A stretch of DNA of 64,000 bases, taken from NCBI GenBank assembly GCA_001310415.1, contig BAXE01000001.1:1-64000 (forward strand), written 5' to 3'. The stretch comes from Enterovibrio sp. JCM 19048 (GTDB lineage: Bacteria > Pseudomonadota > Gammaproteobacteria > Enterobacterales > Vibrionaceae). Made by a program: the position numbers and the translations under genes. Every line of letters begins with the position of its first letter. Within the stretch, counting starts at the first letter, position 1. The notes beneath the pieces are model-generated. The model searched no databases. It was not told where the DNA came from and saw only the letters and a list, made by a program, of their open reading frames with translations. Below, piece by piece: positions 1,805-31,240 of the stretch.

Positions 1805-2130
1805 GACAGCAAGTCAGTCACTTCATCGGCGTGAATGGGGCGAACCAAGCGTTCTATCTCCAACCCGTCTTCCAGCAGGATTAAGGTCGGCCACAGTTTC
1901 ACGCTGAACGCCCGACCCAGCCGTTTGCCTTTTCCGTCATAAACCTTAATGTGTTGCAGAGAGGGGTGCGCGGACATCGCTTCTTCCACCGCGGGCGCGG
2001 CTGCCTGGCAATGGCCGCACCATGGTGCACCAAACTCCAGTAGTGCGAATCCCTTTACCCCGCTGACATCCTCAAATGCGGGAGCATCTTCGTCAAATTC
2101 GGGGTTGTAGCCTGTGGTTGTTGCTCTCAT
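1780..2130 (-). CDS. thioredoxin-like protein
   Basis: A 116-residue single-domain thioredoxin-fold protein. The active site is WCGHC within LEFGAPWCGHCQAAAP, and the cis-proline loop is VKLWPTLILLEDG. CGHC is more usual in protein disulfide isomerases than in classical thioredoxin (CGPC), which suggests a less reducing redox potential; that is an inference. No signal peptide is visible, so it is probably cytoplasmic. It ends inside the 3' end of the convergent kinase gene and shares a 128-base divergent promoter region with the metallopeptidase gene starting at 2259. Confidence 0.85.
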   Translation of the reverse strand: MRATTTGYNPEFDEDAPAFEDVSGVKGFALLEFGAPWCGHCQAAAPAVEEAMSAHPSLQHIKVYDGKGKRLGRAFSVKLWPTLILLEDGLEIERLVRPIHADEVTDLLSYVNRNPN

Positions 2131-2258
2131 GGTGGATTCCTTTCCTGTGTTTTGCGGCAGAACTTCCAGTAAGTAAAGTTTGCCCTGTAAGGATCTGCTA
2201 GGTCAGTTTCCTGTTCGCTGCTAGCATTGCCCCGAGTTTTTGAGATAAATCCAAGTTT

Positions 2259-2756
2259 ATGAACACACATCTTCGCTACATCAATGGTTATCCACCACAT
2301 CTGATTGAACAGGTTCAGCGTCTTGTCGAGTCAGAAAAGCTGGGTGCCTGGCTGAAACAGCGCTATCCATCCCATCACGATATCAAGTCTGAAAAAGCGC
2401 TCTATGACTATGTGATGGCAATAAAAAACAGCTATCTGAAAAAGTCAGCGCCGCTTAGCAAGGTGGCGTATGACGGAAAAATCCACGCGATAAACAATGC
2501 ACTCGGCATGCACAGTTTTGTTTCCCGTGTGCATGGCGGGAAACTGAAAGCGAAAAACGAAATTCGCATTGCATCAGTTTTCAAAGATGCGCCTGAACCT
2601 TTCCTGCGGATGTTGGTGGTTCACGAACTTGCCCACATCAAAGAAAAAGAACACAACAAGGCGTTTTATCAATTGTGTTGCCACATGGAGCCTGACTATC
2701 ACCAGTTGGAGTTCGATGCGCGTTTGTTCCTTATCCACCTTGAAACGAAAAAATAA
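2259..2756 (+). CDS. YgjP-like (DUF45) zinc metallopeptidase
   Basis: A 165-residue protein with the zincin signature HELAHIKEKEH: two histidines and the catalytic glutamate, followed by a downstream HMEPDYHQLEFDARLFL segment typical of the YgjP/WLM-like M48-related family. In this family the extra histidine after the helix usually completes the zinc site. No signal peptide, so cytosolic. The substrate of the family is not known. It is complete and in one frame, transcribed divergently from the thioredoxin gene, and ends at a bidirectional terminator shared with the chemoreceptor gene. Confidence 0.8.
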   Translation: MNTHLRYINGYPPHLIEQVQRLVESEKLGAWLKQRYPSHHDIKSEKALYDYVMAIKNSYLKKSAPLSKVAYDGKIHAINNALGMHSFVSRVHGGKLKAKNEIRIASVFKDAPEPFLRMLVVHELAHIKEKEHNKAFYQLCCHMEPDYHQLEFDARLFLIHLETKK

Positions 2757-2760
2757 CCAT

Positions 2761-2797
2761 AAAAAAGCGCCGCTTGAACAGCAGCGCTTTTATTTTC
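2761..2797. terminator. bidirectional terminator between ygjP-like gene and chemoreceptor
   Basis: Inverted repeat AAAAGCGC (2763-2770) / GCGCTTTT (2784-2791). A run of A precedes it and T-rich sequence follows it, so it can stop transcription from both converging genes. Confidence 0.75.
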
Positions 2798-2808
2798 TTC
2801 TTGTGCGG

Positions 2809-4763: not shown

Positions 4764-5175
4764 CTTAGCCTCCTGCTCAATGGCTTATAAACAGACTGTC
4801 ACAATTGACGTACTTTTGGCGTGCGTACAACTTCAGGCCGTGCTGAATGTAATGCGCAGCCACTTCCTTTCTCTCCTGAAAACACGCACTGACTACAAAC
4901 TCAGTTGACTATACAAGTTATTGAGAGTGCGCTCAGCTATTAAACAGATAGCTCACAAATGAAAAACCCACCAATTTTTTGGGGAATAAAACCTTGTCAT
5001 CAATAGCTTGGTTTGATTGGTCATGCCTTTGTTGCGAATAGATACTGATGAGACATTGGTCGGCCTAAATCATTCGGAATTACATGGGATTACATAATGT
5101 GAGAGGGACATATATCAGGTAATGTAAAGTAAAATATTTACATAAGTGTGGGCGTAAGTCGCTGGCAAAGGAGAG
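4764..5175. other. divergent intergenic region, chemoreceptor / MATE
   Basis: 412 bases of A+T-rich DNA between two divergent genes. It should carry both promoters. I see no RNA gene or credible ORF. AAAGGAG at 5168-5174 is the ribosome binding site of the MATE gene. Confidence 0.4.
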
Positions 5176-6545
5176 GTGATGGTTGAAGATAGTTTCAGTT
5201 TCTTTTTAAAACGGGCATTGGTACTGGGACTTCCATTAGCTTTGCAGAGCCTACTCTTTAGCAGCGGCGGCTTTATTGACAACCTGATGGTAAGCCAGCT
5301 TGGCACGCAGGAAGTGGCTGCCAGCAGTATTGGTGCTCGGGTGTTCTGGTTTGTCGGGATCTTTATCTGGGGTATGGGCACCGGCATGGGCGTACTCCTT
5401 GCGCAATTCTGGGGTGCCCAGGACGAAGAAGGATTGCGCAGGAACTTTGCCCTTGGCTCGACCTTCTCTTGTGGCGCGTCGTTGCTTCTTTTCCTTGTAT
5501 GTTGGTTTTTTCCAAGCCTGGTTCCTGCCATGTTCAATGCGCAAGGGGAGACTGCACGCCTGGCAGAGGCTACCTACAAATTATCAGTATTGCCATATTG
5601 TTGGCCGGGCCAACCATTTCGATGGATGCGGCGCTGCGGGCTTTGGGAAAACCAAAACAACCCTGAACTTGTCCATAGTTGAAATAGGCTGAACATCAGC
5701 CTGAGCTTTATTTTGATATTTGGATATTTTGGCGCGCCCGCGATGGGACTGATGGGGGCTGGCTACGGCACCGTAGCAGCGCGTGTGCTCCGTGTGTTGA
5801 TGTCATTGGCCGTGCTCTACGTTAAGTCGCCGGTTCTTGTATTGCGAACTACTGATTTTGCTTTTACCCGTGCCATCTTGCGCAAGTACCTCAATATTAC
5901 TGCACCCATCATTGCGGGAAGCCTGATGTGGAGCGGTGGAATATTCACCTATCAGCTCATCATGGGAGGATGGGTGAAACTGAGCTGGCAACCATGGCCA
6001 TAATCTCTTCGCTGGAAGCCATTTCATTGTGTATCGCTTCGGGTCTTTCAGGTGCCACCGCCATCATTATTGGTAACTCTCTGGGGGCAAACAAACTTGA
6101 AACCAGTGAGAAGTACGCGCGATACGCTATGCAAACAGCGATAACAGTGGGTTTGCTTTGTGCCGTCATTTTGCTGGCATTAAAAAACACCATTTTGTCG
6201 ATATACACCAATGTAAGCAGTGAAGTAATAACGCTGGCCTCCCTCTGTTTTCCTGTGTTGGCGATCAGCTCAATCGTTAGAAACATCAATATTACTTTGA
6301 TTGTCGGGGTATTACGTGCCGGTGGGGATGCCAAATTCTGCATGAATATGGATGTTGTCTGTCAGTGGCTATGGGCGGTGCCGATGACGGCAATGGCTGC
6401 GATGTGGCTGGAGTTTCCGCTGTATTACGTTTTTCTGATGATGACGTCGGAAGAGATCGTTAAGTTGTATCCCACCATCAAGCGCGTTTTTGGTAATAAA
6501 TGGGTGAATAATCTGACAGATAGCCGTATACCCAAGCGAACTTAA
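5176..6545 (+). CDS. MATE family multidrug/sodium antiporter (four frameshifts)
   Basis: Inner-membrane exporter of the MATE family, about 457 residues once the frame is restored. Diagnostic pieces are SGGFIDNLMVSQLG near the N-terminus, GTGMGVLLAQFWGAQ, DAALRALGKPKQP in the middle, and GLSGATAIIIGNSLGAN at the start of the second half, with about 12 hydrophobic helices in two repeats. Four single missing bases break it, at about 5592 (A), 5665 (C), 5690 (C) and 5968 (G); restoring each gives an uninterrupted family-like sequence. The start is GTG 5176 or, better placed behind AAAGGAG, ATG 5179. Its stop codon lies in the left arm of a palindromic repeat. Substrate unknown. Confidence 0.85.
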
Positions 6546-9435: not shown

Positions 9436-12208
9436 ATGGCAGATATTAAAGGTACTAGCGGTGTTGATTTTCTCTATGGTGACATTGAGAAAAGCGAAAA
9501 CCTACTGATCAACGGTGACTTCGACGCTTGGGGAAATGACACTTCCAACACCTGGGGTCTTTTTCAGGATCATCAGGTTGCAGGCTGGTATACGCCGGGC
9601 TCGATGAAAATTGAACTGCAGCAAGGTACCTTCGGCGGCACACCAACCAATGACGTTTCAAATACTGTGCTAGAGCTGGACTCCAACGGCAATACCTGGG
9701 TGCAACAGGATGTGGATGTGACAAACCTAACCACAGACGGCGATGCAACCCTGAACCTCTCTTTTGATTACGCGAACCGCTATAAAGGCGATAACCACGC
9801 AACCAGCCAGTTTCAGGTCAAGGTGATGGATAACGATGGAAACGTCCTTTACACCCAGTACTTTGAAAACACTCAATCCAATGAGAGCTATGTAAACTTC
9901 GAGATCGACTTTGCGGTACCGGAAGGCACCACGGGCATTTCGCTGCGTTTTGAAGGTAAAGGCGCATCAGACGGTTACGGCGCACTCATCGATAACGTTG
10001 CGCTTACAGCCTCATCCGCGGGTGATATCAACGACACCATCAACGGCTACGAAGCAACGATTTTATCGATGGCCTGACTGGTAACGACACCCTTTATGGT
10101 GGCAATGGTAACGATGAAGTTCACGGCAGTGAAGGTGACGACGTTATCTATGGTAACGATGGTAAGTGGGGCAACGGTGCCCGCGAGCTTATGACCAATG
10201 GCGACTTTGAAGATTACGGCAACAACACCACCAACCACTGGAGCCTGTTGCAAGATCACCAGGTAACCGGCTGGTATACACCGGGTACCAACCCTATTGA
10301 GCTTCAACAGGGTACGTTTGGTGGCACACCACAAAATGACGTGACCAATACTGTGCTGGAACTCGACAGCACCACCAATACCTGGGTTCAGCAGGATGTA
10401 GATATCACAGGCCTGACAGCAGGTGGTGATGAAGTGTTGTCGCTTTCTTTTGACTATGCGAACCGCTACCGCGGCTCAGACACCGCGACCAGCCAGTTTG
10501 AGGTCAAAGTGTTTGACCAGCAAGGCAATGTTATCTACAGCAAATACTTTGATAACACCCAAGCCAATGACCATTACGAATCCTTCACTGCAGACGTTGT
10601 TGTACCGCAAGGCAATGACTTCATTACTATCCGTTTTGAAGGTGAAGGTAAATCCGACAGCTATGGCGCCCTGATTGATAATGTCTCCCTGCAGCAAAAA
10701 GTGAACTGCGAAGGCGACGATGACATGCTTTACGGTGGTACCGGCAACGACACCATTTACGGCGAACACGGCGATGATTACATCGAAGGTAATGAAGGCG
10801 ATGACACCATTTTCGGCGGTGTAGAGTACTCACAGTCTCTGACGCTTTCACACGAAGATGACGCAACTGTCTACCAATTGGGTTGTGATGGCACAGTCAC
10901 CATTTCACTGAGCGATTTCACTCACAGCGCCGCGTACAACAACAGTGTTGGTTACTACGTGCTGGATGAAAATGGCAATGTAGTACGTGCTGAAGTGTTG
11001 ATTGATAACGTGAAAACGGTCAGCGACCTGACTACAGAGATCGACATTTCCGGCGGCGTGTCGTTTGGTATGTTCCTGATCCCTGATGGCGACCGCAAAG
11101 GCTTCGACGTCGGTTCTGTCAATATCGACATTTCAGGTACCGCATCTACAGTGACCCAAGGTGGCGCAAGCTCTGTGGTCTATGTGGCTAACAGTGCAGA
11201 AAATGGCGATGGTTTTGACCACGAAACAGTAAGCGGTGACCGTTCAAGCTGGGAAGATCTTTGGAATCTGGGTGACAACGACTTCAACGACACGGCGTTC
11301 AACATCATTGTGACGCAACAGAACCACTACACCGACAACGACACCATCAACGGCGGTACAGGTAACGACTGGATCCACGGTGGTGACGGCAATGACGTCA
11401 TCCACGGCAACGAAGATGATGACACTATCTACGGTGGTAATGGTGACGACATCATCTATGGTGATGAAGGCAACGACATTATCAACGGCAGCGCGGGTGA
11501 CGACATCCTTTATGGTGGTGACGGTGACGACAAACTGTATGGCGCAAGCGGTAACGATTCGCTCTATGGCGGCGCGGGTAACGACTATCTGCAGGCTGGT
11601 TATGAAGACGATATCGTGATGGATGGTGGTACCGGTGTCGACATTTATATCGGTAGTGAGGGCAACGACATCATGTACTTTGATGAAGAAGACTTCTCTG
11701 ATCTGGCTATTCTCAACACACGCAACAACATGTATGTGGGTGACCGTGGCTTTGATAAAGTGATTGTTACCGGTCAGGAAAATGTCGACTTCTCCGGTTC
11801 CAGCTACCACGCCCTAGGCGCAGTGACGACGGCAAAAGCTGTTGCTCAGGTCGAAGCAGTGATTGCTGATGAAGGTAACCAGACGTTTACCATCAACGCC
11901 CATGCGATTGTTGAGCAGTCAGACAACATTCAAACCACCACCAATGTGGATCCGGGTGACTGGAATGGTTTTGTTGCCTATCTGGGCGAGGGTGATGACA
12001 CCTTCAATCTGGAAGCGGTTAACTGGACTTACAACGCAGCCGCAGCCCCAACGGCAGAATTGTCTGCAGAGATGATTGCTTTATGGACTTGAGCGGCACG
12101 CAGGTGGGTGAACTGAAGGCATACGTGTTTGAGCACGACAACTTTGATGCCATCACCATCTGGACAGATGCTGAGCACGTTGTTTATGACGGTGGCACCA
12201 TCGTTTAA
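9436..12208 (+). CDS. large RTX protein with duplicated jelly-roll-like module and DUF4114-like domain (two frameshifts)
   Basis: About 924 residues with no Sec signal peptide, as expected for a type I secretion substrate. Order: a short RTX-like start (GTSGVDFLYGD); module 1 (about residues 18-195) with GDFDAWGNDTSN, GWYTPG, IELQQGTFGGTP and YGALIDNV; RTX repeats; module 2, a close copy of module 1; further RTX repeats; a DUF4114-like domain ending SSWEDLWNLGDNDFNDTAFN; about eight RTX repeats; and a C-terminal region shared with the gene at 7184. The duplicated module looks like a galactose-binding-like fold and may bind surface glycans (inference). A missing G near 10053 and a missing T near 12081 break the frame; the second restores EMIAFMDLSGTQ and moves the stop to 12206-12208. 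No type I transporter genes are in this window. Confidence 0.75.
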
Positions 12209-12228
12209 TGCGACACTGCAGTCTACTG

Positions 12229-12253
12229 AAAACCGGCGCAAGCCGGTTTTTTT
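12229..12253 (+). terminator. terminator of second RTX gene
   Basis: AAAACCGGC / GCCGGTTTTTTT with a four-base loop, immediately after the corrected stop codon at 12208. Confidence 0.85.
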
Positions 12254-12374
12254 ACGTCTGAGGTTTGAAGGCAAATGACATTGCTGCCTTTGTCTTTTTA
12301 ACGAAGCACCCAAGTTGCAAAAATAGTGGTTATATATACAGTATCTAAATAACAAGATGAATTGGGTAAGAATC

Positions 12375-12929
12375 ATGGAAAGATGTCGCTGGGCAAACGT
12401 AAGCGAGCTGGATCAGAAGTATCACGATGAAGAGTGGGGTGTGCCGGTTCACGACGATCAACAGTTGTTTGAAATGCTGATCCTGGAAGGGGCGCAGGCT
12501 GGGCTGAGCTGGACAACCATTCTGAAAAAGCGCGAAGGTTACCGCGAGGCGTTCGATAACTTCCATATTGAAACCGTTGCCGCTTACGGGGAGGAGAAAA
12601 TTGCCCAGCTATTGGAGAATCCGGCAATCGTTCGAAACAAGCTCAAAGTAAATGGCACGGTGATTAACGCCAAACTGGTGCTGGAAATCCAGAAAGAGTA
12701 CGGCAGTTTCGACGCCTATATCTGGCAGTTTGTCGGTGGCAAACCAATCGTCAATCACCCTGAAACCATCGCAGAGGTTCCCAGTTCCAGCCCGGAATCA
12801 GATGCAATGAGCAAGGCGCTGAAAAAGAAAGGCTTTAAGTTTGTCGGAACCACGATCTGTTATGCATACATGCAGGCCACAGGTATGATCAACGACCACG
12901 TAAAAACCTGCTTCCGTTACGGGAAATAG
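12375..12929 (+). CDS. tag: DNA-3-methyladenine glycosylase I
   Basis: Base-excision repair enzyme that removes 3-methyladenine from alkylated DNA. The 184-residue protein has the family N-terminus MERCRWAN with HDEEWGVP, the LILEGAQAGLSW segment, and the C-terminal FVGTTICYAYMQATGMINDH that includes the conserved histidine and cysteines of the zinc site. An in-frame ATG at 12357 would add six residues, but ATG 12375 matches the family start. Single gene with its own terminator. Confidence 0.93.
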   Translation: MERCRWANVSELDQKYHDEEWGVPVHDDQQLFEMLILEGAQAGLSWTTILKKREGYREAFDNFHIETVAAYGEEKIAQLLENPAIVRNKLKVNGTVINAKLVLEIQKEYGSFDAYIWQFVGGKPIVNHPETIAEVPSSSPESDAMSKALKKKGFKFVGTTICYAYMQATGMINDHVKTCFRYGK

Positions 12930-14195: not shown

Positions 14196-15094
14196 CTACG
14201 CGACCAACGTCGCGGCGTCTGCCGTCGAGCCTTGTTCCATCACCAACTGTTTCACAGCATCTTTGTAGAGATTGAACATATGGGTTTGGGCTGCCTGAAT
14301 ACCCATGTTGTACCCTTCATCAAGTTTGGCCTTTTTCATGGTGAAGCGACCGACAGGGAAATGCTCGGGCGGGGCAATCACATGGACGGTGCAATCTTTG
14401 GGTGGATTTTTAATAAACGCCAATGAAGCGTTATAACGGTCTGCGCGTTTTCGCATGGCTTCGGCCACATGCGGATGTTTTTTCAGTAGCTGATCCATCA
14501 GTTTCGGCATTTTCATCGGTGACATTTCGTAGTCGCCCGGCTGTGAAAGAATCACGGTAATTTCACGAGCGCCCCGTCGGTAGCTTCCGCCACCGGAATT
14601 GAATCAGCCACGCCACCGTCGGTATAACAACCTCCGGAAAAACAGGGTGTTGGACGGTAGGCAATAGGCAGCGCTGTGGTTGCTTCAATCACCTTGGACA
14701 TGTTCTGTGGTTTTACCCAGTAGTAATCGGCATCGCCGGTATCCACATTCGTCACTGCCGCCAAAAGGGGAATGTTGTTAAACAGGGTTTCGGTGTTCAG
14801 TGGATAGCGGCGCAGGGATTCCTGCTCCAGCCATTGCACATCAACCAGGTTACCACCGCGCACGAAACGGGCGGGGTTAAAGAAAGTGTCGTTGGTAGCA
14901 AGGCCAGTGATCACCTGATAGCTGCGCTTTGGTTGCTCTGCAAGATAGCCCAACAGGTTTGATGCACCTGCGGAAACCCCGATTGCAAAATCAAACGGTT
15001 TGAAATTAACGTCCAAAAAAGTATCCAACACACCGCTTGCGAAAATACCGCGCATGGCACCACCTTCAACGACCAAAGCCCTTTTACCCAACAT
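14196..15094 (-). CDS. patatin-like phospholipase, YjjU type (frameshifted)
   Basis: Serine acyl hydrolase of about 300 residues. The oxyanion motif is VVEGGAMRGIFASGV, the nucleophile is in GVSAGAS, and the catalytic dyad aspartate is in YTDGGVADSIP. The family hydrolyses acyl esters of phospholipids; the physiological substrate of bacterial YjjU-like members is not established. A G is missing near 14566, where GGGG should be GGGGG; this restores ATDGGAREITVILSQPGDY. No signal peptide. It is transcribed on its own and divergently from the YbaK-like gene. Confidence 0.83.
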
Positions 15095-15246
15095 CTTTCC
15101 AATCTCTTTGCTTGTTTGCCTACGTGGAAGGATAGGTTGGCGCGCAACGATGAGAAATTGCTATTGTCTATCTCATCAATAGATTTGACTGATTGTTTTC
15201 AGGCTACAATGCTTGTCTGTTTGGAATGGAATCACAGGGACAAAAC

Positions 15247-15693
15247 ATGTCGTTAGAAGCAGTAAGGGATTATTTCTCGCAAAGGGGCATCGACCACCGT
15301 ATCGAGGTGATGGAAGTGTCGACGGCGACGGTGGATGAAGCTGCCAAAGCACATCAGGTGGTGCCGGATCAAATCGCCAAGACGCTTTCATTCAAAGTGC
15401 AGGATGACCCGATTTTGATTGTTGTTTCCGGTGCATCAAGAATTGATAACAAGAAGTACAAACAACGATTTGGGAAGAAGGCCAAAATGCTGACCCCCGA
15501 AGAGGTGTTGGATGTTACCGGTCACGCAGTAGGTGGAGTATGCCCCTTTGGATTGGCGCAGAATGTACCTGTCTATCTGGATGCTTCGCTGAAGAAACAT
15601 GCCGAGGTGATTCCTGCAGCGGGTGCATCAAATTCCGCAATCAGGCTAACGATTGAAGAGCTGGAAGCCCATTCGAATTGTTCTGAATGGTAG
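15247..15693 (+). CDS. YbaK/ProX-type aminoacyl-tRNA editing domain protein
   Basis: Single-domain trans-editing protein of 148 residues, a homologue of the INS domain of prolyl-tRNA synthetase. Signatures are QIAKTLSFKVQDDPILIVVSG with the conserved lysine, KKAKMLTPEEV, and TGHAVGGVCPFGL, the substrate-binding GxxxGGVCPFG loop. Family members deacylate mischarged Cys- or Ala-tRNAPro. An in-frame upstream start at 15193 exists, but ATG 15247 fits the family N-terminus. It is intact. Which misacylated tRNA it uses cannot be decided. Confidence 0.8.
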   Translation: MSLEAVRDYFSQRGIDHRIEVMEVSTATVDEAAKAHQVVPDQIAKTLSFKVQDDPILIVVSGASRIDNKKYKQRFGKKAKMLTPEEVLDVTGHAVGGVCPFGLAQNVPVYLDASLKKHAEVIPAAGASNSAIRLTIEELEAHSNCSEW

Positions 15694-15705
15694 ATGTGTG
15701 TATTG

Positions 15706-16177
15706 CTACTGATAGCGCGCCGCAGTAATAAACTCACCAAAGGATTCACACCAAATCACCACGGTGTTGTATTGAGCTGGGTTGATGTCTTGCGGCACCT
15801 TGACCAAGAAGTTTTCGAAGGTTTTGACATCGCCCACCCGCTGCATCTGGGGTTTTAGTCGGTTAAAGTCAGCTTCTGTTTCAACAAACTGCGGTGAGAG
15901 ATAGAGCTTGTAATCAGGCCCCGGCGCCAGTTCACCAATCAGGGAAATGGTATCCGCTGATGGTAACAACCCCTTCTCCCCAATGGAACGTGTCGCTGTC
16001 GATAAGGTCTTTTCTGAATTCGCCGGTATAGGTGGCGTTGTTGTTTGACGTTTCAATCACTTCAACAGACGGCCCTTCAGGCGCAATCAAGATCGGAAGG
16101 GCGTAAATCCCTGCGGCAAAGCCGATAATCAGGGTAAACAGGTGAGTGAAAAATAGAATGATCCCGTTCTTTGTCAT
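15706..16177 (-). CDS. DM13 domain membrane-anchored protein (frameshifted)
   Basis: About 157 residues. An N-terminal hydrophobic segment (residues 5-27, GIILFFTHLFTLIIGFAAG) anchors a periplasmic DM13 domain. That domain shows YTGEFRKDLIDSDTFHWGEG, GELAPGPDYKLYLSPQF and the single conserved cysteine in VVIWCESFGEFI. DM13 domains are proposed electron-transfer or redox modules. The frame changes near 15960-15970; two bases are missing or one is extra, for example a lost CG after TIS. It is transcribed in the same direction as, and upstream of, nothing else obvious. Confidence 0.78.
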
Positions 16178-16248
16178 CTTGTGCTTCCTGCAAGGATTAC
16201 CTCAATAGAGTGTAATCTAGTAGGGTATAAACAGTGACTCAGTGAGAA

Positions 16249-16276
16249 AATACCCGCTTGGAAAAATCCAAACGGG
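16249..16276 (-). terminator. terminator of the CurA-like gene
   Basis: On the minus strand, CCCGTTTGGA / TCCAAGCGGG (nine of ten pairs, loop TTTT) is followed by TATTTTC. Confidence 0.65.
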
Positions 16277-16310
16277 CATTTAGAGAGATTCTCAAATTTG
16301 CAGCGTGGCT

Positions 16311-17344
16311 TTATCGCGGATCGGCAACTTTGATTACCAGCTTGCCGAAGTTTTTCCCTTCCAGCAGACCCATAAAGGCTTGCGGTGCGTTTTCCAATCC
16401 GTCGACAACCTGCTCTTTGTACTGGATTTTGCCTTCTGCCAGCCATTTCGACATATCGGTCGCGAATTCGTCATAGCGGTGACCGTAATCATCAAAGATG
16501 ATGAAACCTTGCATCTTGATGCGTTTAACCAGCAGGGTACCCATCAGCATATACATGCGATCTGGGCCTTCTGGCAGCTCTGTGGCGTTATATTGGGAAA
16601 TCAGGCCGCAGACTGGAATGCGCGCACCTGTGTTGAGCAGAGGCAATACCGCATCGAACACTTTACCGCCAACGTTTTCGTAATAAACGTCGATACCCTT
16701 GTCACAGGCGGCGGCGAGCTGTTCAGCGAAGTCATCGGCTTTGTGGTCAATACAGACATCAAAACCCAGCGTCTCAACTGCGTGGCGGCATTTTTCTTCA
16801 CCACCGGCAATACCAACCACTTTACAGCCTTTTAGTTTACCAATCTGACCAACAGTCGCGCCGACCGGCCCTGTTGCTGCAGCCACCACTAGGGTATCCC
16901 CCTGTTTCGGCTGACCAATATCGAGCAGACCCATATACGCGGTAAAGCCCGGCATGCCCATGACACCTAAAGCATAGGATGGGTGAGAAGGGGATTTACC
17001 CAGTTTCAGCAGACCTTCACCATTCGATACGGCGTAGCTTTGCCAACCCGTGTATGCCAGTACCCATTCACCCACTTCAAAATCAGGGTGATTTGATACT
17101 TCTACCTGGCACACGGTTGAGCCGACCATCACTTCATTGACTTCCACAGGATCGGCGTAAGATTCGCATCGCTCATACGGCCACGCATGTACGGATCCAG
17201 CGAAAGATAAATGGTGCGCAGAAGCACTTCACCTTCATTTACGCTCGGCACAGGCTGGGATTCTAGGCGGAAGTTATCGGTAACAGGCGCGCCAACAGGG
17301 CGGGATGCAAGAACGATTCGGTTATTCTCTAAAGAAGCTGACAT
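16311..17344 (-). CDS. NADP-dependent enone/double-bond reductase, CurA family (frameshifted)
   Basis: Medium-chain dehydrogenase/reductase without zinc ligands, about 345 residues. It resembles CurA and leukotriene B4 dehydrogenase-type reductases that reduce alpha,beta-unsaturated ketones with NADPH. N-terminal SLDPYMRGRM, nucleotide-binding AAATGPVGATVGQIGKLKG and central YYENVGGKVFDAVLPLLN are characteristic. One A is missing near 17163; restoring it gives SDAKSYADPVEVNEVM. A TetR gene lies directly upstream in the same direction, and a 20-base operator identical to the one in front of that regulator sits 18 bases before this start codon. It probably detoxifies reactive electrophiles under that repressor. 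Confidence 0.87.
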
Positions 17345-21875: not shown

Positions 21876-22234
21876 TCAGAAGCTATCCTGTCGTGCTAAA
21901 TAGAAGGCCATGGCTTTGATCTCTTCCGCACTGAAAGGCTGCATTGCCACTTCCATTGGCACGTACAATCCGTTCTGACGCTTCTTGTTTTTGTAATCCA
22001 TCAGCTGGTTATTAAGGTACATCTCCGACTGACCGCCAATCTTGGGGTAAAGCGGAATAACCGGCTCGTTTCCCGTTGCGCCATGCATTGCATGCAGCCA
22101 CCACGACCGGGGTTTTCGTACAAGGACTTTCCCTGTGTAAACAGCGCATCTTCCGCAGCCAATACCGGGGTGCAAAACGTGAAATTCAAAACAGATGCCA
22201 TCAGAATGCCGAATGTTATCGCTGATTTTTTCAT
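21876..22234 (-). CDS. periplasmic class I cytochrome c (frameshifted)
   Basis: About 119 residues. Signal peptide MKKSAITFGILMASVLNFTFC to about ALAAED, then one heme site and a distal methionine candidate (VPMEVAMQPFSAEE). The heme motif CMQCH is interrupted by a missing C near 22083; the repaired sequence reads GGCMQCHGATGNEPVIP. It has the length and YLARQ-type C-terminal helix of small soluble electron carriers. Its ATG overlaps the TlpA stop codon (ATGA). Last gene of the redox cluster, probably the soluble electron shuttle or assembly partner. Confidence 0.8.
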
Positions 22235-22736
22235 TTTTCCGAACTCTCCTCCAAACAAAGCAGCCAATTCCTGAAAGGTGTTGCTTCCTCACCGAGATAC
22301 CCTGCGCCGATATAGGCACCTTGCCATTGACCGCCAATAGGGTTGTGGGCAAACCATGGATGCCGAGCGGTTGGAAGGCGCGTAAATCTTCTACAAAAGC
22401 CGTCCCCAACGATTCCGCGCCGAGTTTTGAGAGCGTATCGGTAACGTGTTCCGTCACTGCGCCGACATGCACGGCCTGAACGCCGATTTCTGGCTCGTCT
22501 CTTAACGAGGCTTTGAGTGATGCCAACATGGGTAATTCTTTACGACAAGGAGCACACCAGATTGCCCATAGGTTGATAAGCTGCACATCGGCATTCAGTC
22601 GCTCAGTCATTACTTCTGGCAACGTAAGTGCATCTCCTACCGCAGTAAAAGGCGCAGGTGCTGGGCAAGACTCAGCGGCATGAGCACTGTTTATCGCACT
22701 AAGTAGAAGCGCCAGGCTGAAAATGAGCCTGCGCAT
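22231..22736 (-). CDS. TlpA-like periplasmic thioredoxin (frameshifted)
   Basis: About 168 residues: signal peptide MRRLIFSLALLLSAINSAHA, then a thioredoxin fold with LINLWAIWCAPCRKELPML (active site WCAPC) and cis-proline GIHGLPTTLLAVNG. TlpA/ResA-type proteins reduce heme-binding cysteines of apocytochromes or the CuA site of Sco/oxidase partners. A T is missing near 22312; repair gives KVPYIGAGYLGEEATPF and a stop that overlaps the following cytochrome start. Start codon overlaps the SCO stop (TAATG). Position between SCO and cytochrome fits a maturation role. Confidence 0.85.
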
Positions 22737-23332
22737 TACTGCTTTGCCTCATTCAGTAGCGGCAGCATTTTTGCCGAGATTTTCTCTGCACCATCTCCGT
22801 AGCCATACACATCCAGCAGCTCGCCAACTGGGCTGTAGAAATAGAGATAGGTGGAATGGAACACTTCATACAGAGCGGGGAGCGGCGGATACACCGGCTT
22901 GCCGTCACGCGAATAGCCATAGGTAGCACGCAAAGATTTCGCGACTGCCTTGGTCTGTGCTTCAGTGCCAACCAATCCAGTCAGCTTTGGGTGGAAGTAC
23001 TGCACGTACTGGCTGAGGTTTTCCGCGGTGTCGCGGTTAGGGTCGATAGAGATAAACAGCGGCGTTACCATATTGGCCTTATCACCCAGGCGGTTCATCA
23101 CGCTGGCCATATCCAGTGCTGTCGTTGGGCAAATTTCAGGGCAGGAGGTATAGCCGACAGCGATAAACAGGTATTGCCCCGGCCAGCTTTTTTCCGTGAC
23201 TTCACCGCGTTTTGCCTCTTTTAACGTGAACGCCAGGGGCGCGGAAACCGCATTGGCACTGAAGAGCATCGCTGCCATCAGCACAATGTTAAAGGTAACA
23301 ATGCGAGAAAATACGGCAAATTTACCGTCCAT
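22736..23332 (-). CDS. SCO1/SenC family copper chaperone
   Basis: Intact, 198 residues from ATG 23332 behind AGGAG. An N-terminal hydrophobic stretch (residues 9-30) is a signal or anchor. The copper site is the CxxxC of YTSCPEICPTT together with the conserved histidine in EVFHSTYLY. SCO proteins deliver copper to CuA centres or act as thiol reductases. In this cluster, with PCuAC and TlpA, it argues that some product contains copper, yet no cytochrome oxidase or NosZ is encoded here. Confidence 0.92.
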   Translation of the reverse strand: MDGKFAVFSRIVTFNIVLMAAMLFSANAVSAPLAFTLKEAKRGEVTEKSWPGQYLFIAVGYTSCPEICPTTALDMASVMNRLGDKANMVTPLFISIDPNRDTAENLSQYVQYFHPKLTGLVGTEAQTKAVAKSLRATYGYSRDGKPVYPPLPALYEVFHSTYLYFYSPVGELLDVYGYGDGAEKISAKMLPLLNEAKQ

Positions 23333-23342
23333 ATTCAACTCC

Positions 23343-24442
23343 TTAGTGACAGATAGTGTTGGTCAGACCCATCGCAATAAGATGGGGAGACTTCAGGCCG
23401 GTATCCAACTCAGGCAGCAGGCTCTCCAAACGTAAATCGACCACCAAAAGCTTGCTGCTGTTGGCTTGGGTGGCAAACAGGGTTTTGGAATCCGATACCA
23501 CAACCACGTCGCCCAGTGGGGCATCAAGCGGGAAATGCTTGGCCGGTTTATCGTCAGTGAGGTTAAACACGTTCAGACCTGACTGGGTGGCGACAACGCC
23601 GATAGATTCCAGCCAGCCGGTGCGGATTTCGGTGGTTTTGTCTTTGAAATCGACTGATTTGACGGTCTGGCCGCTCCAGGTATTCACCACTTTCCCCTGA
23701 CCGTTTTTTGCCGCCAGGATCATGTGTTCACTGTCGGAGCTGACATAAGGCGCCAAGGTGTGTCTGCCAGTTCGATGTTGGCAAATTCCTGCTCCATAAA
23801 CAGATCCCAGACGTTGACGGTGTTCTTGGTCAGGTCGCTCACCATCACCAAGCGGGCATCTGGTGACAGGGTGACTTCAGACACTGCACCGCCGCTGCCC
23901 AGTTGCAACTCTTTGGATGCGGCATCATGCACACGCCAGACCAAGGTGCGTCCGTTGTCTTGCTCTGTGATGTAAAGGTTGTAGCCGCCGGTATCGAAGT
24001 TGACGCTGTAAGGTTGGGCAAGCGGCGCGATAGTTTCGAGACTGCGTTTGGTCAGCGGCTCCATCATCACCAATTTGTTGTTCAGACCGACCGCCACCCG
24101 TGCGCCATCGGGGGCGATAGTGATGGAATACGGAATAGAGTCCACGCCCATCGTCCAGTGCGTTTTTTCAACCAGATCATAGATGTAGACTTGCGGCGTT
24201 TTGCCGTCGATGTAGATCAGCATGTCCTGCACATCGGACACTTCCATCGCGGTTGGTACGGCTTTGAGTGTGAGGGTATCAACGTGGGTGTGGTTGAAGG
24301 TATCAACGACCGCAACCTGCGTGGAGGTTTTGTCTGAGATAAACGCCCAGCGCGCGCCATCGTCATAACGGCCCGGCTCATCAGCGAGTGGGCTGGCACT
24401 GATCAGCAGCAATGCGATTGCCGCGAATTTTTTAATAGCCAT
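23343..24442 (-). CDS. YncE-like seven-bladed beta-propeller protein (frameshifted)
   Basis: About 366 residues. Signal peptide MAIKKFAAIALLLISASPLA, then repeated blades with signatures AFISDKTSTQVAVVDT, QVYIYDL, YSITIAPDGARVAVGLNN, EVTLSPDARLVMVSDL and KTLFATQANSSKLLVVDL. The fold resembles YncE and the d1-heme propellers of NirS/NirF, but I see no heme motif. A T is missing near 23752; repair joins ADTPLAPYVSSDSEHM. It may be the substrate-handling or scaffold subunit of the cluster. Confidence 0.8.
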
Positions 24443-24451
24443 AGAAACTCC

Positions 24452-24475
24452 AATGCCCCCGGGATTGGGGGCATT
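24452..24475. terminator. GC-rich hairpin between Lcl-cytochrome and propeller genes
   Basis: AATGCCCCC / GGGGGCATT with six-base loop. The T run lies on the plus strand, so it would terminate antisense transcription; on the minus-strand mRNA it is a strong intercistronic stem that may adjust expression of the two genes. Confidence 0.55.
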
Positions 24476-24485
24476 TTTTCGAAGG

Positions 24486-26155
24486 TTACGGATTACGGAT
24501 ACAGCGGGTGTAGAACTCGGTTTCCTTGGTCATACCAAGGCCTGAACCAATCTGGTAGCCCTGTGCCCATGCGGCGTTACCGGTATCTTTACGCAGATCG
24601 TACATATCTGGCGTTTGGTCTTTCTTACGCGGCGGCAGAGGGCGGACAAACAGGGTTGGCCCCGGTAAGTCGCTGGTGCTGCTCCAGAAGAAGTACTTGA
24701 TTGGCGTGTTCGGGAAGAACTCCTCATCAATCGCCGGTGAGGTTTTGTTGTAGTTTACAATCGACACCAGTTCTTTGATGTTTGGCAGACGCCAGTCTGA
24801 GTAGCTGCGTAGTCGAGGTTTTCACAGTAATCGACAGAATCCAGCCAGTTGCGGCGCTCGTAATCGATGTTTTGCTGCCACATGCGGTTGGTCAGCTTCT
24901 CGGTGACGGTACCATCTTGGTTATCGACATAAGACATGTTGTGGTACGCCGCGCCGTTGTCGGCACGTACACAGCGAACCAGTTTGGTCGACGCCGTGTG
25001 TTGACCCATGATATGGCCTTCCGGGAAGCCGATATGCCATGCGTGGTCAGGGTGATCACTTACCGGGAAGCCCCATACACCTGAGCTTAGGCGCGGCATA
25101 TTTAGGAATGCATCGGTATTGATGGCCGGGCGGAATTCGCCCAGATCGGCAATCGACTGCAGCTCTTTCATCAGCGGATAGCGCCAGTCGTCGTAGCCGT
25201 CCAGCTCCAGGTTTTCACAGTACTGCTCGCCTTCAACTGCGGTCATCCAGATACGGGAAGAGTCACGTTCCCACATCAGTTTGGTGTTGTTGTCGAGTAC
25301 GGTTTTGCCAGATTCGCTGATGCTGTAGCTCATCGGGTTTTGCGGGTAATCGCTGTCTTCACCTTTCTTGTCGATAAAGTTCTGGATTTGGCCGGTGTCT
25401 GGCAGCTTAAATCCTTCAGGGGCAGGCATCCCTTTGCCCGAGATAAACGCTTTGCGTTCAATCGGTGTGTAGAACATACCGGTAACGTAAGCGACGATAT
25501 CTGCGTAATCATCTTCGCTCATCATCTTGGCAAAAGGCACCATGATGGCCGCTTGGCGGTTGGTTCGCTTACCATCGCGGTAGGCGGTCAGCTGTTCGAA
25601 AACGTACGCAGCATTTGCCTTTCAGTGGCGGGTAAGCCGGGTTGGTGCTTGCGCCTTGCTCGCCATGGCACATTTTACAGCTGGCATCGTATTTGGCTTT
25701 ACCGCGCGCATAGGCGTCGCTTTCCAGTACCTCTTTGCGTGGATTCCATTTCATTGGGCGTTCGCTCAGTACCAGCGAGATATCTGCCATTTCTTTTGGT
25801 GAAATGGTGTAAACCATCTCTTTCATCTGGGATGAAACGCCTGCCTGACGCTCCATGTCCATGTCGACAAACTGGTTGAAGAAATACTGTGGATCAAAAC
25901 CCTCAAGCTTAGGACTGAGGGTTTCCGGCACTTCTTCCACCGCTGGGCGGTGGCAACCCAAATAGCAGCCGTAGATCGCCCGGTTTGCGTTCTGGCGCTC
26001 TTCAGGTGTCAAATCTGCAGGGATACGGTTGATGGTGTAATCTTCGTAGCCGTTATCAATGTCAATGCGCTTTTCTGTTGCCATAGCGGAAACAGAGGCC
26101 AGCCCCAGCGCTACTGCTACTGCAGCAAATACAGCTTTTGGAATACCTTAGCCAT
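24486..26155 (-). CDS. diheme cytochrome c with two Lcl/DUF1566 domains (four frameshifts)
   Basis: About 557 residues. After an N-terminal signal peptide (KAVFAAVAVALGLASVSAMA) come two cytochrome segments. The first has the unusual spacing GCYLGCH (CX3CH), the second the standard CKMCHGEQG. Residues from about 265 on contain two Lcl C-terminal (DUF1566) domains: one around TKLMWERD and YDDWRYPLMKELQSIAD, the other around NRMWQQN and YSDWRLPNIKELVSIVN. Missing bases near 26138 (T), 25622 (G), 25602 (T) and 24802 (G) break the frame; each repair gives coherent sequence. Its start overlaps the stop of the NapC-like gene. It looks like the central periplasmic redox protein of the cluster. Confidence 0.75.
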
Positions 26156-26772
26156 TGTTTACATCTCCCAGTAACGCGGCCATTTCGCGCATCTTCTCTT
26201 CCTGGCGCAGACGCATATAGCGCTTCAGATCAGGGTGAGCGATATCAAAGTGGCAGCTTGAACATTTCCATTCTTTGTCGGTGTCTTTGCGCGCAAGGCG
26301 AGCTTGTGGGTTTGGTCTGAAACCGGCGAAGTCTCGGTGGCGACCTTGGCACGGTCTTCCAGTGTGCGGTGACAGTTCACGCAGCCAGAATCGAACACAT
26401 ACTCAGTGCGTTTCGGATGAAGCTCTTCGTAGTCGAGCGCATCCATCTGCAGCACGTATTCGCCCCAGAGGTGGCGCATGCCAGACGTACCTTTTACGTA
26501 CAGCTCTTCCACCACGTTGGAGTCAGGCAGGTGGCAGGAGACACAATCTGCGACAAAGCCTTGTGAGTTATTGCCTCCGTGGACGGATTCAGCAAAGGTC
26601 TCTGCCATCGGCTCCATAGTGTGGCAGCTGGCACAAAATTCGTTGGTGCTGAAAACATGCAACACTTCAGTCGCTGGCAAGGCAGCCAAAAGGCCCAGCC
26701 CGGTACCGGCAAGCAGCAGCACGGCAAGGACGGCACCCTTTACATTTTTAATGGCTTCAAAAGCGCTTTCAT
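26148..26772 (-). CDS. NapC/NirT-type tetraheme cytochrome c, quinol dehydrogenase (two frameshifts)
   Basis: About 208 residues. One N-terminal transmembrane helix (VLAVLLLAGTGLGLLAAL), then four heme motifs: CASCH, CVSCH, CVNCH and, after repair, CSSCH. NapC/NirT/CymA proteins oxidise menaquinol in the inner membrane and feed electrons to periplasmic reductases. Repairs: one A near 26748 (MKALLKPLKNVKGAV) and one A near 26298 (LRAKDTDKEWKCSSCHFD). Starts ATG 26772, three bases after the PCuAC stop, and its own stop overlaps the next gene. It is the expected electron entry point of the cluster. Confidence 0.85.
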
Positions 26773-26774
26773 GG

Positions 26775-27241
26775 TTATTGACCCGCCTTAATCTGTGCAG
26801 AGGTTTTACTACTGCATCGCATTTCACTTCTGGATCAAACGCCAGCCAAAGCTCAACCGGGTAGGTTTCTCCCGCCAGTGGACGCTTTTTAAGGTTGAAC
26901 AGCATCACATGCTTGCCACCTGGTTTGAGTTCTAGGGCTTCGTTCGGATTCACGCGCAGTTGCGGAATGCGTTGCATGGTCATCACACCATCCACGTGTT
27001 TCATGTCATGCAACTCGGTGTAGCTGGTCAGTGCAGGCACTGAGCCGCCATAGAGTGCTTCCGGCGCCGGAAGACGCAGTGAGCTGGTCTCTTCGGTGGG
27101 TTTATAAACAAGCGTGAAATACAGGCCGGTTTTGTCCGCGCCTGGTGCAGGCTCTCTGATCACACAGTCGGTCACAGTAACTGCCGCTTGTGCAGACAGA
27201 CAGGTGAGGCTCAGCATCACGGAGCAAAGGATTCGCTTCAT
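26775..27241 (-). CDS. PCuAC-family periplasmic copper chaperone (frameshifted near 3' end)
   Basis: About 155 residues with signal peptide MKRILCSVMLSLTCLSAQA. The Cu(I)-binding pattern is visible: ELHDMKHVDGVMTMQRI followed by LKPGGKHVMLFNL (H-x-M). PCuAC proteins hand copper to CuA sites, usually alongside Sco. One base (probably T) is missing near 26806; repair gives DAVVKPSAQIKAGQ and a stop just before the NapC-like start. Without the repair the frame runs falsely into the cytochrome. Confidence 0.87.
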
Positions 27242-27266
27242 GGTGATAATTCCTTTCAGTTAACGG

Positions 27267-28249
27267 TTAGAAAGAGACGATGAGGCCGACGTTGACGTTG
27301 TCGCCTTTAGCAATGTCTGCCGGCTTGTTCACACCCGCTTGGTATGATGCGCCGTACAGCGCACCTTCTGCGAACAGGGCAAAATGCTCGTTGAAGTCAT
27401 GACGCACGTTGGCAAGGTAGAGCGATTCGTTGTCGCGGGCGCCTTTCCAGTCGGCGTATTGGTAGCCGAGGCTGAATGAGGTGTTGTCCAGGGTGTACTT
27501 GGCGGAAACGCCGTAAACGTTGCGGCTGTCGAAAGGCATGTCGTAATCAAACTCTGCGACGGCACCGACGTAAAATTGGTTGAATTCGTAGCTTGTCGCT
27601 ACAAGGGTGCGTTGGCCGTCCTGGGTTGCGCCGCCCAGCATTTCTTTGGATGTCCATGAATGGTTCACCACCAGGCGAAAGGCTTCTTGAGTGTAGAGCG
27701 CGCGCAAGCCGACAATATCTGCGTCAGCGTCATTTTGCTCATCAGGTGAAACCACCGCGGCTTTGAACTGGAATCCGCTAAACACTGGGGTCATGATCGC
27801 CAGCTGGTTGGTCGCATAGCGCTGAGCACCAAACAACATGTTATTGCTGTGGCGTTCCATGTTGTTGCTTTCGAAGATATCGACTTTGCTGTAAAGGTCG
27901 TTCCAGGTGCCTGTGGTACCGGAACCAATGTAAGCGCCGCCAAGGCCCGGGAACATCACTCTGATATTGGCTTCACGAACGATGAGATCGTTATCTTCGC
28001 TCTTTTCGGTCATCGACTCTGAGTATTCCGCTTCCAGTTGGTAGCCGATACCAAAGCTGTTTACTTTCATGTTACCCATCGCACCTACCTGGGCTTGATA
28101 GATATCAGTGGTGTAGTCGCTGTTTTCCTGCCACGCAGCCTGAGCACGGATGTCACCGTAGAGATCAGGCATTGGCATGTCAACTTGGGTAGCGGCTGCA
28201 CTCAACGGAAGGAGTGCGGCTAAGGTTGTAGAACCAATGGTTTTTTCAT
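27267..28249 (-). CDS. Gram-negative porin, first gene of the redox cluster (frameshifted signal peptide)
   Basis: About 327 residues. The signal peptide is restored by one A in an A run near 28242 (MKKTIGSTTLAALLPLSAAA). The mature part begins PMPDLYGDIRAQAAW and consists of alternating beta strands with aromatic girdles, ending NVNVGLIVSF with the typical C-terminal phenylalanine recognised by the BAM complex. It resembles trimeric general/specific porins of the Porin_4 type. As the first gene of the cluster it could admit the electron acceptor into the periplasm; that role is an inference. Confidence 0.8.
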
Positions 28250-28534: not shown

Positions 28535-29448
28535 ATGTCCTTTCCGATAGAAACACTCAGAATGTTCAGCGTATTGGCCGAAACCTTGAATTTCACGGAA
28601 GCGGCAGCGTCTCTGAATATCAGCCAGCCAACCCTAAGCCGTAAAATCAGCCAGTTAGAGCAATCGATCAATGTGCGATTGTTTCACCGTGGAGGAAACC
28701 AGGTACATTTGACGCCACACGGGCGGATGTTTTTGGAGTCGAGTCACCGTATTCTGGATGATCTGGACAGCACACTTGAAAAGCTTCACGACTCTCCGGA
28801 AAGCATCCGGGGTGATATATCTGTAGGCTTGTTGCACCCGATGGCACGTTGGTTGAGTGAGTCTTTTTTTGACGGCTTTTTGAAGCGCCACCCCAATGTA
28901 AGTTTAAGCCTGACGACCTTGCATCCTTCAAATATGCGTGAGATGCCAAACTGCGACATTATGATTTCGCCCATGTTGCCAGAAGATCTGTCGCTGGTGG
29001 CCAAGCCGATGAAAAAGTACCGCCGAATTTTTTGTGCGTCGCCGGAATATATCGCCATGTTTGGTAAGCCATCGTCGCCAAATGAACTGATGTTTCACCG
29101 TTGTATTACCAACACTAACTCACCTAAGCCGGAAAGCTTCTGGCCGTGGGAGGATGCCGCGGGCAATACCGGAAAGATAAATGTGAGCGGTAACATTTCG
29201 ACGGATTCCGTCGATATTTCAATCAATCTGGCAACGGCAGGCTGGGTATCGCCTTTGTACCCAAAAACCAGATCGTCGAGCAGTTGAAAGCCGGTACTTT
29301 GGTGGACTTGTTTGATGGGAAGTATTTCTGTTGGGGAAATCTATATGCCATATACCGTTCGAGAAAGTACCTTCCGATGCGGTTTACGGTGTTGATGGAT
29401 GAGATTAAACAGTTTTTTGAGGATTTCAGCCGGCAAAATGCGGCGTGA
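28535..29448 (+). CDS. LysR family regulator divergent to redox cluster (frameshifted)
   Basis: About 304 residues. N-terminal winged helix: ETLRMFSVLAETLNFTEAAASLNISQPTLSRKISQLEQ. Effector domain begins around RGDISVGLLHPMARWLSE. A C is missing near 29242; repair gives LATAGLGIAFVPKNQIVEQL and extends to the stop at 29446-29448. ATG 28535 fits the family start; the open frame further upstream has no such match. It is separated by 285 bases from the divergent porin gene, the usual geometry for a LysR protein controlling the opposite operon. Confidence 0.85.
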
Positions 29449-29464
29449 ATGGTCAATGAAATAG

Positions 29465-29489
29465 AAGCGGGCCCGAAAGCCCGCTTTTT
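29465..29489. terminator. terminator between LysR and SulP genes
   Basis: AAGCGGGC (29465-29472) / GCCCGCTT (29479-29486) with T run; lies between convergent genes. Confidence 0.85.
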
Positions 29490-29505: not shown

Positions 29506-31060
29506 TTAAGCCAGTACGTCGGTAGCGACCTTATAGCTTGGATCTTCAATGTGGTTAATTTCAACCAGGCTACCTGCTTTGGTCAGCAGTGCCAGACAAT
29601 CCTGCGACAGGTGACGAAGGTGCAGTGTCTTACCGGCTTTGTTGTAGCGCTCAGCCAGAGTCTCAATGGCTTCGATTGCCGAGTGGTCAGCGACACGGGA
29701 TTTGCCAAAGTCGACAATCACGTCCTGCGGGTCGTTTTGCGCATCAAACAGTTCAAGGAAGTTTGCAACAGAACCGAAGAACAGCGGGCCATTCACTTCG
29801 TACACCTTAGAGCCTTGGTCGTTGGTGTAGCTTGATGCATAGATATGTTTCGCGTGCTCCCAGGCAAACATCAGCGCAGAAACAATCACACCCACGATAA
29901 CGGCAATAGCCAGGTCAGTCATAACCGTAACCACGGTAACCAGTACAATCACAAAGAAATCACGCTTCGGTACGCGACGCGCCAACCCGAAAGTCGCCCA
30001 CTCGAATGTACCGATAACCACCATAAACATCACGCCTACCAGCGCGGCCAGCGGGATCATTTCAATCCACGACGCGGTGAACAGGATAAAGCAGAGTAGG
30101 GCAATGGCAGCGGTGATGCCGGACAAACGACCACGACCACCAGAGTTTACGTTAATCATGGACTGGCCAATCATGCACAGCCGCCCATCGCACCAAATAC
30201 TGAACAGGTGACGTTTGCGACGCCCTGACCCACACACTCGCGGTTACCGCGACCACGGGTGCCTGTCATTTCATCGACCACGGTTAGAGTCAGCAGGGAT
30301 TCAATCAAACCAACTGCGGCAAGGATCAGCGAGTAGGGCAGGATGATGTAAAGGGTTTCCAGATTAAACGGCACTGTCGGAATCGAGAAGGTTGGTAAAG
30401 TACCTGCCAGTGTTGCGTTCTCATCACCACTCATTGAGCGCAAGAAGTCCACCACTGTGCGGGTATCTAGATCGAGCAGGATAACGGCTGCTGTCACACC
30501 TACAATCGCCACAAGGGAAGATGGCACCGACGTGGTGAACTTCGGCAGGAAGTGAATGATAGCATGGTAATAGCAACCAAACCCAGCATCAAATACAGCT
30601 GGCTACCCTGAAGCCACTCCAGTTCCCCGTTTGCTCCCGGCACTTTGAACTGCCCCAGTTGCGCAAGGAAAATCACAATGGCCAATCCGTTAACAAAACC
30701 AATCATGACCGGATGTGGCACCATGCGGATAAATTTACCCAGTTTGAATATCCCGGCAGAAATCTGGATGAGACCTGCAAGCATTACGGCAGCAAAAAGG
30801 TATTGAACGCCGTGCTCAGCAACCAGACTGACCATGACCACAGCCATTGCACCTGTTGCACCGGAAATCATGCCAGGACGACCACCAAGAATAGAGGTGA
30901 CAAGACCCATAATGAATGCGGCGTAGAGACCCACCATTGGGTCAACACCTGCAACAAAGGCAAAGGCAACAGCTTCAGGTACCAGTGCCAGTGCAACCGT
31001 CAGACCTGACAGAATGTCGTTTTTCGCGGAGTGTTGAGGAAACTTGGGAAATTCAAACAT
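29506..31060 (-). CDS. SulP family anion transporter with STAS domain (two frameshifts)
   Basis: About 518 residues. The membrane domain starts [21 protein letters not shown] and includes [19 protein letters not shown] and the signature [17 protein letters not shown]. The cytoplasmic STAS domain (last about 110 residues) contains [20 protein letters not shown] and [20 protein letters not shown]. Family members carry sulfate, bicarbonate or other anions. A G is missing near 30561 ([13 protein letters not shown]) and a C near 30179 (GGCAMIGQSM). ATG 31060 fits family length; an in-frame TTG at 31099 would add 13 residues. Confidence 0.87.
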
Positions 31061-31240
31061 CGTGTTCGGTAACTTCTCTGAAAGTGGGGTTGAAGACAAA
31101 GGGTGTGATAGTACAGAAAAGTGTGATTTTGTTCAATGTTGGTAACGGTTTTGTAAACCGTACAAGAGCTGGAATAGGTATTCGAACAGGGACTTAGCGC
31201 CGTATACACTGGGATGCGGAAGGATTTTGATTACACGTCA

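Follow-up and report, generated by a model that had tools for sequence, protein, structure and literature searches.

A gene cluster in the 64,000-nucleotide stretch of DNA analysed here (the window; Enterovibrio sp. JCM 19048, contig BAXE01000001.1) belongs to a conserved unit of the Vibrionaceae in which a quinol dehydrogenase, cytochromes and copper chaperones accompany a protein that fuses a cytochrome c4-type part to two Lcl_C domains. The unit comprises eight genes on the minus strand at 21876–28249 and a divergent LysR regulator gene. We give about even chances to the reading that this self-contained, apparently horizontally moving module builds a quinol-fed periplasmic oxidoreductase, most likely a terminal reductase for a form of anaerobic or microaerobic respiration not yet described. 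The c4-Lcl protein is its candidate catalytic subunit and would lie outside the enzyme families tested.

Gene content, order and distribution

The original prediction named eight adjacent genes, and all of them are indeed present, with family matches identifying Porin_4, PCuAC, Cytochrom_NNT (NapC/NirT), Cytochrom_C plus Lcl_C, a beta-propeller, SCO1-SenC, a thioredoxin/TlpA and a cytochrome c. The LysR regulator (28535–29481, plus strand), omitted at that stage, is also part of the unit and is its partner in 16 of 16 relatives. Because the window copy is frame-broken, the analysis was based on intact relatives. A nine-row profile of the Lcl cytochrome, searched at E values up to 1e-60 against 329 Vibrionaceae genomes, matched in 18 of them: 16 matches were full-length, that of the window genome (G000) was frame-broken and that of G449 was divergent and partial. 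The carriers, meaning the 16 and the window genome, therefore number 17 of 329 and are patchily distributed. The window assembly itself consists of 5.27 Mb in 70 contigs and is 87.5% complete.

No full-length relative of the Lcl cytochrome was found outside the Vibrionaceae in samples of 369 genomes from the class (E up to 1e-25) and 398 from the phylum (E up to 1e-40, with the Lcl protein of the divergent locus in G449 as query). Five matches in the class sample comprised the window genome and four that matched in the Lcl part alone. Both matches in the phylum sample were Vibrionaceae carriers, and this search was blunt, since the window genome itself missed the 1e-40 cut-off. A scan of named genomes with two peptide patterns from the cytochrome part returned seven loci, all in Vibrionaceae. 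The named carriers are Enterovibrio coralii, Enterovibrio sp. ZSDZ35, Photobacterium obscurum, P. alginatilyticum, Vibrio sp. 99-70-13A1, V. rotiferianus and V. renipiscarius, as well as Photobacterium sp. DA100; the window genome and E. coralii (G001) fall in one genus group.

Sixteen intact neighbourhoods were annotated (L017, L020 to L027, L054 and L056 to L061). LysR, PCuAC, NapC, the Lcl cytochrome, the propeller, SCO, TlpA and cytochrome c are present in every one, and the porin in 14, being not found in L017 and L027. In L057 the porin is split into two ORFs (11611–12599), that copy being otherwise intact. Gene order is identical in 15 of the 16; in L025 the propeller-SCO-TlpA-cytochrome c part is placed apart. 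Flanking ORFs of at least 90 residues, mostly from 4–11 kb a side (almost none on one side in L024 and L025, with L020 and L056 near copies of each other), were clustered at 30% identity and 50% coverage over 17 loci including the divergent one, L055. The only other family found in at least three of these was a small gene of L055, L021 and L022, and no further family is common to at least three of the 16 intact neighbourhoods. A CXXCH motif occurred in none of the 183 flanking ORFs of the 16 loci, and a TAT-like motif in one, a dehalogenase of L017. The expected conservation of gene order in the absence of a recurring reductase was thus borne out in the 16 intact neighbourhoods, whose flanks were compared with one another and scanned for motifs, those of L017 alone also being run against family libraries. 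No description of this gene set was found among the literature matches listed.

The quinol dehydrogenase of the window (26151–26771) is a NapC/NrfH-type tetraheme protein whose ORF scores 75.9 bits for PF03264 against a cut-off of 24.1. NapC/NirT proteins carry four CXXCH motifs, the first as CXXCHxM, and NapC-type proteins oxidise quinol. Four CXXCH motifs, with CXXCHTM, are present in all 16 cluster copies, which places them in this family. A reduced core is found at L055 (8507–12067) in G449, a genome of the Photobacterium genus group, where a tetraheme NapC (PF03264, E 2e-71) is followed by a cytochrome with two CXXCH motifs, a double-Lcl protein, SCO (E 4e-39) and an 84-residue ORF with one CXXCH. 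The double-Lcl protein of this locus lacks the cytochrome part and is 37% identical to the Lcl cytochrome of L021. Because NapC, diheme c, Lcl, SCO and monoheme c are kept at L055, they would be the part most likely to carry the function, and the locus is possibly a second system of the same kind.

Copies from Vibrio, Photobacterium and Enterovibrio are intermingled in a tree of the Lcl proteins. There the window copy falls among those of Vibrio and Photobacterium, to which it is 87–90% identical over ∼269 residues, and not beside the two other Enterovibrio copies, to which it is 77–78% identical. Well-supported branches (7 of the 14 inner ones) force at least 3, 3 and 2 changes for the three genera, and transfer between genera therefore appears the likeliest explanation, judged from genus labels without a species tree.

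The c4-Lcl protein, its partners and the window copy

The Lcl cytochrome gene occupies 24486–26155 in the window, the cytochrome part being encoded at 25591–25974, with CX3CH near 25965 and CXXCH near 25675 as read from sequence and alignment. This N-terminal part matches cytochrome c4 (8uf3, E 6e-24; other c4 structures matched were 6q2u and 1etp). A c4 cytochrome has CXXCH in each of two domains, whereas here the motif is CXXCH in the second domain and CX3CH in the first in all 16 intact relatives; M105 of the first domain aligns to the M200 region of the second. It is possible that the protein works like a c4. One heme is secure by its motif, and the other site may bind either a heme through an atypical motif or a metal, which makes the "diheme" description given originally uncertain.

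Lcl_C (PF07603) scores above the Pfam cut-off, with 159.8 bits over two stretches in L021 and 88.3 bits in the window. In domain 1, all 16 copies share an invariant set of H366, H369, H376 and H381, embedded in either HPDHxWHxGFxxxHxMGQH or RHDHxWHxGFxxxHxMGQH. By alignment, the cluster lies at 24985–25065 in the window (SDHPDHAWHIGFPEGHIMGQHTASTK) and is a candidate metal site. At the 11 loci read around other Lcl matches, the proteins were generic Lcl proteins without NapC or SCO neighbours. None of the nine that were compared carries the cytochrome fusion, and H369, H376 and M378 occur together in none of these nine in the BLAST alignment. A cytochrome-free second Lcl protein lies ∼25 kb from the cluster in E. 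coralii (G001:C30:6962-7171; L068 6329-7881).

The motifs of all three copper chaperones are intact in the 16 copies. PCuAC (26771–27241 in the window; 69.5 bits) has its motif in every copy, with a spacing of 18–23; the form H-X10-M-X21-H-X-M, which is the definition given in an excerpt of PMC6696091, can be read from the window translation. SCO (22736–23338; 114.7 bits) has CXXXC and the distal His pattern, and the TlpA-like thioredoxin (22285–22736; WCAPC) is over the PF00085 cut-off and has WCXXC, again in 16 of 16. These matches and motifs place the proteins in their families, although the window TlpA-like protein is below the NCBIfam cut-offs for TlpA and ResA. The last gene of the set encodes a small monoheme cytochrome c (21876–22267), which in the reading frame of its 3' end is 56–71% identical by tblastn to intact copies.

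The exported propeller (23343–24442) has its best structural matches in NirF and cytochrome cd1, at 12–14% identity and tied with WD40 folds; AztD and hydrazine synthase beta are also among the matches. It looks like an accessory protein, because L055 keeps Lcl, diheme c, NapC and SCO without it. The proposal that Lcl cytochrome and propeller together form the terminal complex is therefore half supported: the Lcl part is kept in L055 and the propeller part is not.

About nine frame changes lie within the eight genes of the window copy and one more within LysR, as seen by tblastn of intact copies. In the porin (27267–28249), whose start codon is near 28249, the frame changes in an A run just downstream of the start, and intact porins cover window positions 28187–27270. 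The remaining breaks are at the PCuAC/NapC junction, towards the end of NapC (near 26290), at the start of the Lcl cytochrome (near 26135) and again near 25612 and 24803, once in the propeller (near 23750), at the C terminus of TlpA (near 22300), in cytochrome c (near 22150) and in LysR (near 29250). The breaks at the porin start, the PCuAC/NapC junction and the Lcl start were read from the sequence and the others from tblastn. The ORFs of the window consequently do not correspond to genes: PCuAC and NapC are fused in one ORF, the Lcl cytochrome is in three main pieces and the propeller in two. Overlapping stops and starts had been taken as a sign of co-translation. This stands for the intact relatives, L021 having overlaps of 4 bases each at PCuAC/NapC, NapC/Lcl and SCO/TlpA and, if the gene is taken to be the longest ORF, of 31 bases at TlpA/cytochrome c. 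The one-base SCO/TlpA overlap of the window (22736) is intact, but the ORF overlaps at 24755–24767 and 23720–23756 are artefacts of frame changes rather than gene junctions.

The window copy was at first read as a set of possible pseudogenes. Sequencing error was judged likelier, because the breaks are many, ORFs are split elsewhere in the window and identity is high on both sides of the breaks (80–90% for the Lcl cytochrome and 73–84% for the propeller, against L054, L057 and L060); real decay is a possible alternative. Elsewhere in the window, a SulP-like transporter, read from its translation, is split over three ORFs at 29506–31099, and further pairs of ORFs on one strand overlap out of frame, for example 57999–58658 and 58603–60000. 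Indel errors seem to run through the whole window, beyond the cluster.

Alternative readings

The observations that weigh against a terminal reductase concern the Lcl domains, the divergent locus, dehalogenases and cytochrome oxidase. The sequences among which the His cluster is conserved are rather close (at least 60% identical to L021), and a single divergent sequence tests it: the Lcl protein of L055, which keeps H369, H376, M378 and an upstream DH and has lost H366 and H381. Histidine fills both the H369 and the H376 positions in one generic Lcl protein (L063, 6262), and a single cluster position in each of L018, L064 and L067. Beside the L055 core, no PCuAC, TlpA, propeller or porin was found. 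Moreover, since Lcl domains are best known as surface ligand binders, the role of the Lcl part could be binding instead of catalysis. The unit might then be a sensing or surface electron-transfer device, in which Lcl binds a ligand (a polymer, a humic compound or a metal), the cytochrome passes electrons and copper is incidental. In agreement with this, an excerpt of PMC11162425 presents Lcl as a surface glycosaminoglycan binder, and no CXXCH ORF adjoins the Lcl gene at 11 generic loci (eight in six genomes outside the family, with L068 of G001, L071 and L072; matches in G037 and G048 were left out), the one such ORF of L018 lying 4.7 kb away. Such a device nevertheless seems unlikely, given the three copper genes in 16 of 16 copies, a porin of the Porin_4 type and a unit without an outer-membrane multiheme cytochrome.

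Reductive dehalogenases (RDases) raise the possibility that the unit is an electron-supply and maturation module for organohalide respiration, passing electrons from quinol through NapC and the cytochromes to an RDase encoded nearby or elsewhere. The original prediction had named a known reductase adjoining the cluster in relatives as the finding that would overturn it, and one such case exists among the 16 loci. In L017 (G027) the unit sits between two RDase genes (208–5275 and 14481–16389, both over the TIGR02486 cut-off). These genes have TAT signals and are accompanied by small anchor-like ORFs, a NosR-like FMN/4Fe4S protein and a flavodoxin-type reductase. TIGR02486 was used because the control for PF13486, a family without a match in the window genome, had matched nowhere. 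Across the 329 family genomes, with G449 counted among the non-carriers, an RDase over the cut-off was found in 33: 10 of the 17 carriers and 23 of the 312 others (Fisher p 3e-7). The enrichment persists within Enterovibrio, Photobacterium and Vibrio when G027 is left out (Mantel-Haenszel odds ratio 13, p 7e-6; per genus p 0.17, 0.011 and 0.005, respectively), in statistics from which shared ancestry inside genera was not removed and in a test that L017 itself suggested. On the other side, no RDase over the cut-off was found in seven of the 17 carriers, the window genome among them and six of them 99–100% complete; 23 of the 33 RDase genomes lack the full unit; and in the nine further carriers that have RDases, these lie beyond the neighbourhoods retrieved. 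RDases are also cobalamin/FeS enzymes with no need for copper. On these genome counts the link exceeds chance, yet an RDase is neither needed nor sufficient. Dependence on a dehalogenase was rejected on an adjacency of one in 16 and a presence in 10 of 17 carriers, and a role in organohalide respiration has in our view a small probability. No title on Vibrionaceae dehalogenases was found among the literature matches listed.

It is rather less probable still that the unit supplies extra copper-insertion genes for the CuA site of a cytochrome oxidase, with its cytochromes as oxidase donors. Cytochromes of the c4/c5 kind can feed oxidases, and a strong COX2 match was found in seven of the eight carriers searched; cbb3 is another copper-using oxidase. 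According to excerpts of PMC6696091, TlpA, SCO and PCuAC take part in building dicysteine CuA sites elsewhere among bacteria: in Bradyrhizobium, ScoI and COX II are reduced by TlpA, and in Thermus, Sco reduces the site before PCuAC loads the copper. However, a stronger PCuAC match lies outside the cluster in seven of the eight carriers, where the cluster chaperones are therefore extra copies, and each of the eight has at least two SCO matches over the cut-off; in the window genome a second PCuAC and a second SCO adjoin on contig C3. G027, in which the single PCuAC match is the cluster's own, carries the whole unit less the porin, yet its only COX2 match is CyoA-like and has no CuA motif. Among the three genomes in which the motif was read, it is full in G621, present as a frame-broken CuA-like end in the window genome and missing in G027. 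The second PCuAC-SCO pair and the COX2 of G027 argue that the chaperones do not simply serve CuA; nor would one expect a LysR gene, a porin or an Lcl fusion in an assembly operon. Oxidase assembly was accordingly rejected as the main explanation on the PCuAC, SCO and COX2 searches.

Another candidate for the copper enzyme was NosZ. It was rejected, and in keeping with the original prediction it does not track the cluster: PF18764 matched in two of the 17 carriers (G439 and G462) and 25 of the 312 others (Fisher p 0.64), with none in the remaining 15 carriers, including the incomplete window genome. Finally, the propeller might itself be the enzyme. As a cd1- or NirF-like protein with a bound tetrapyrrole or copper, it would receive electrons from the Lcl cytochrome and reduce nitrite or some comparable oxyanion. 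Its structural matches point that way and its absence from the L055 core does not; we hold this to be the least probable of the alternatives.

Proposed mechanism and relation to known systems

If the unit is a terminal reductase, LysR would sense the substrate or a related small molecule and the porin would admit the substrate. The NrfH/NapC-type tetraheme protein would take electrons from quinol and pass them to the c4-type domain or domains of the Lcl cytochrome; the small cytochrome c would act as a shuttle or be an alternative partner. From the c4-type part the electrons would move in the reducing direction to a copper site in the Lcl protein. The site that TlpA, SCO and PCuAC would reduce and supply with copper would belong to this system and most plausibly to the Lcl cytochrome, where it may be the invariant His cluster of domain 1 or the CX3CH site. 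The propeller would be an accessory for assembly or for metal or cofactor delivery. In a bolder version, which we advance tentatively and consider clearly less probable than the general scheme, the c4-Lcl protein would be the first catalytic Lcl/DUF1566 protein, its lectin-like fold acting as a periplasmic copper reductase through the domain-1 His cluster and wired to quinol by its own cytochrome domains. More sharply still, the first cytochrome domain might have turned its heme motif into CX3CH so as to hold a dicysteine copper site, the kind of site that a TlpA-SCO-PCuAC module would serve. In this version the protein would define a class of respiratory reductase.

Were the terminal-reductase reading true, Vibrionaceae would have in common a respiratory module, apparently spread by horizontal transfer, with a candidate terminal enzyme that belongs to no family tested and uses a fold best known for binding. 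The presence of the unit in named species (E. coralii, P. obscurum and V. rotiferianus) makes the electron acceptor directly approachable.

With NapC/NrfH-linked periplasmic reductases of the Nap, Nrf and TorCA type, the unit shares a tetraheme quinol dehydrogenase feeding a periplasmic partner, small cytochromes and a conserved operon. In contrast to these, it has no molybdenum enzyme, NrfA or other known reductase, its partner is a c4-Lcl fusion and it brings its own TlpA-SCO-PCuAC set. The clusters of the copper-heme sulfite reductase MccA/SirA also encode a periplasmic respiratory enzyme and combine copper and heme with a copper chaperone; the unit would resemble them in these respects but lacks an octaheme catalytic subunit such as MccA. 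With the CuA metallation module, as described in parts of PMC6696091, it has the same three chaperone families in common, motifs intact, but the unit includes no oxidase subunit, the window genome has its second PCuAC-SCO pair and G027 a COX2 without CuA. NirF and cytochrome cd1 provide the best structural match for the propeller, although heme d1 genes are lacking in the unit and WD40 folds tie at the same low identity. Two Lcl_C stretches are shared with the Lcl/DUF1566 family, of which the nine generic members compared have neither the whole His cluster nor the cytochrome fusion. The cytochrome part matches cytochrome c4, from which the unit's protein is set apart by its CX3CH first motif and its two fused Lcl domains.

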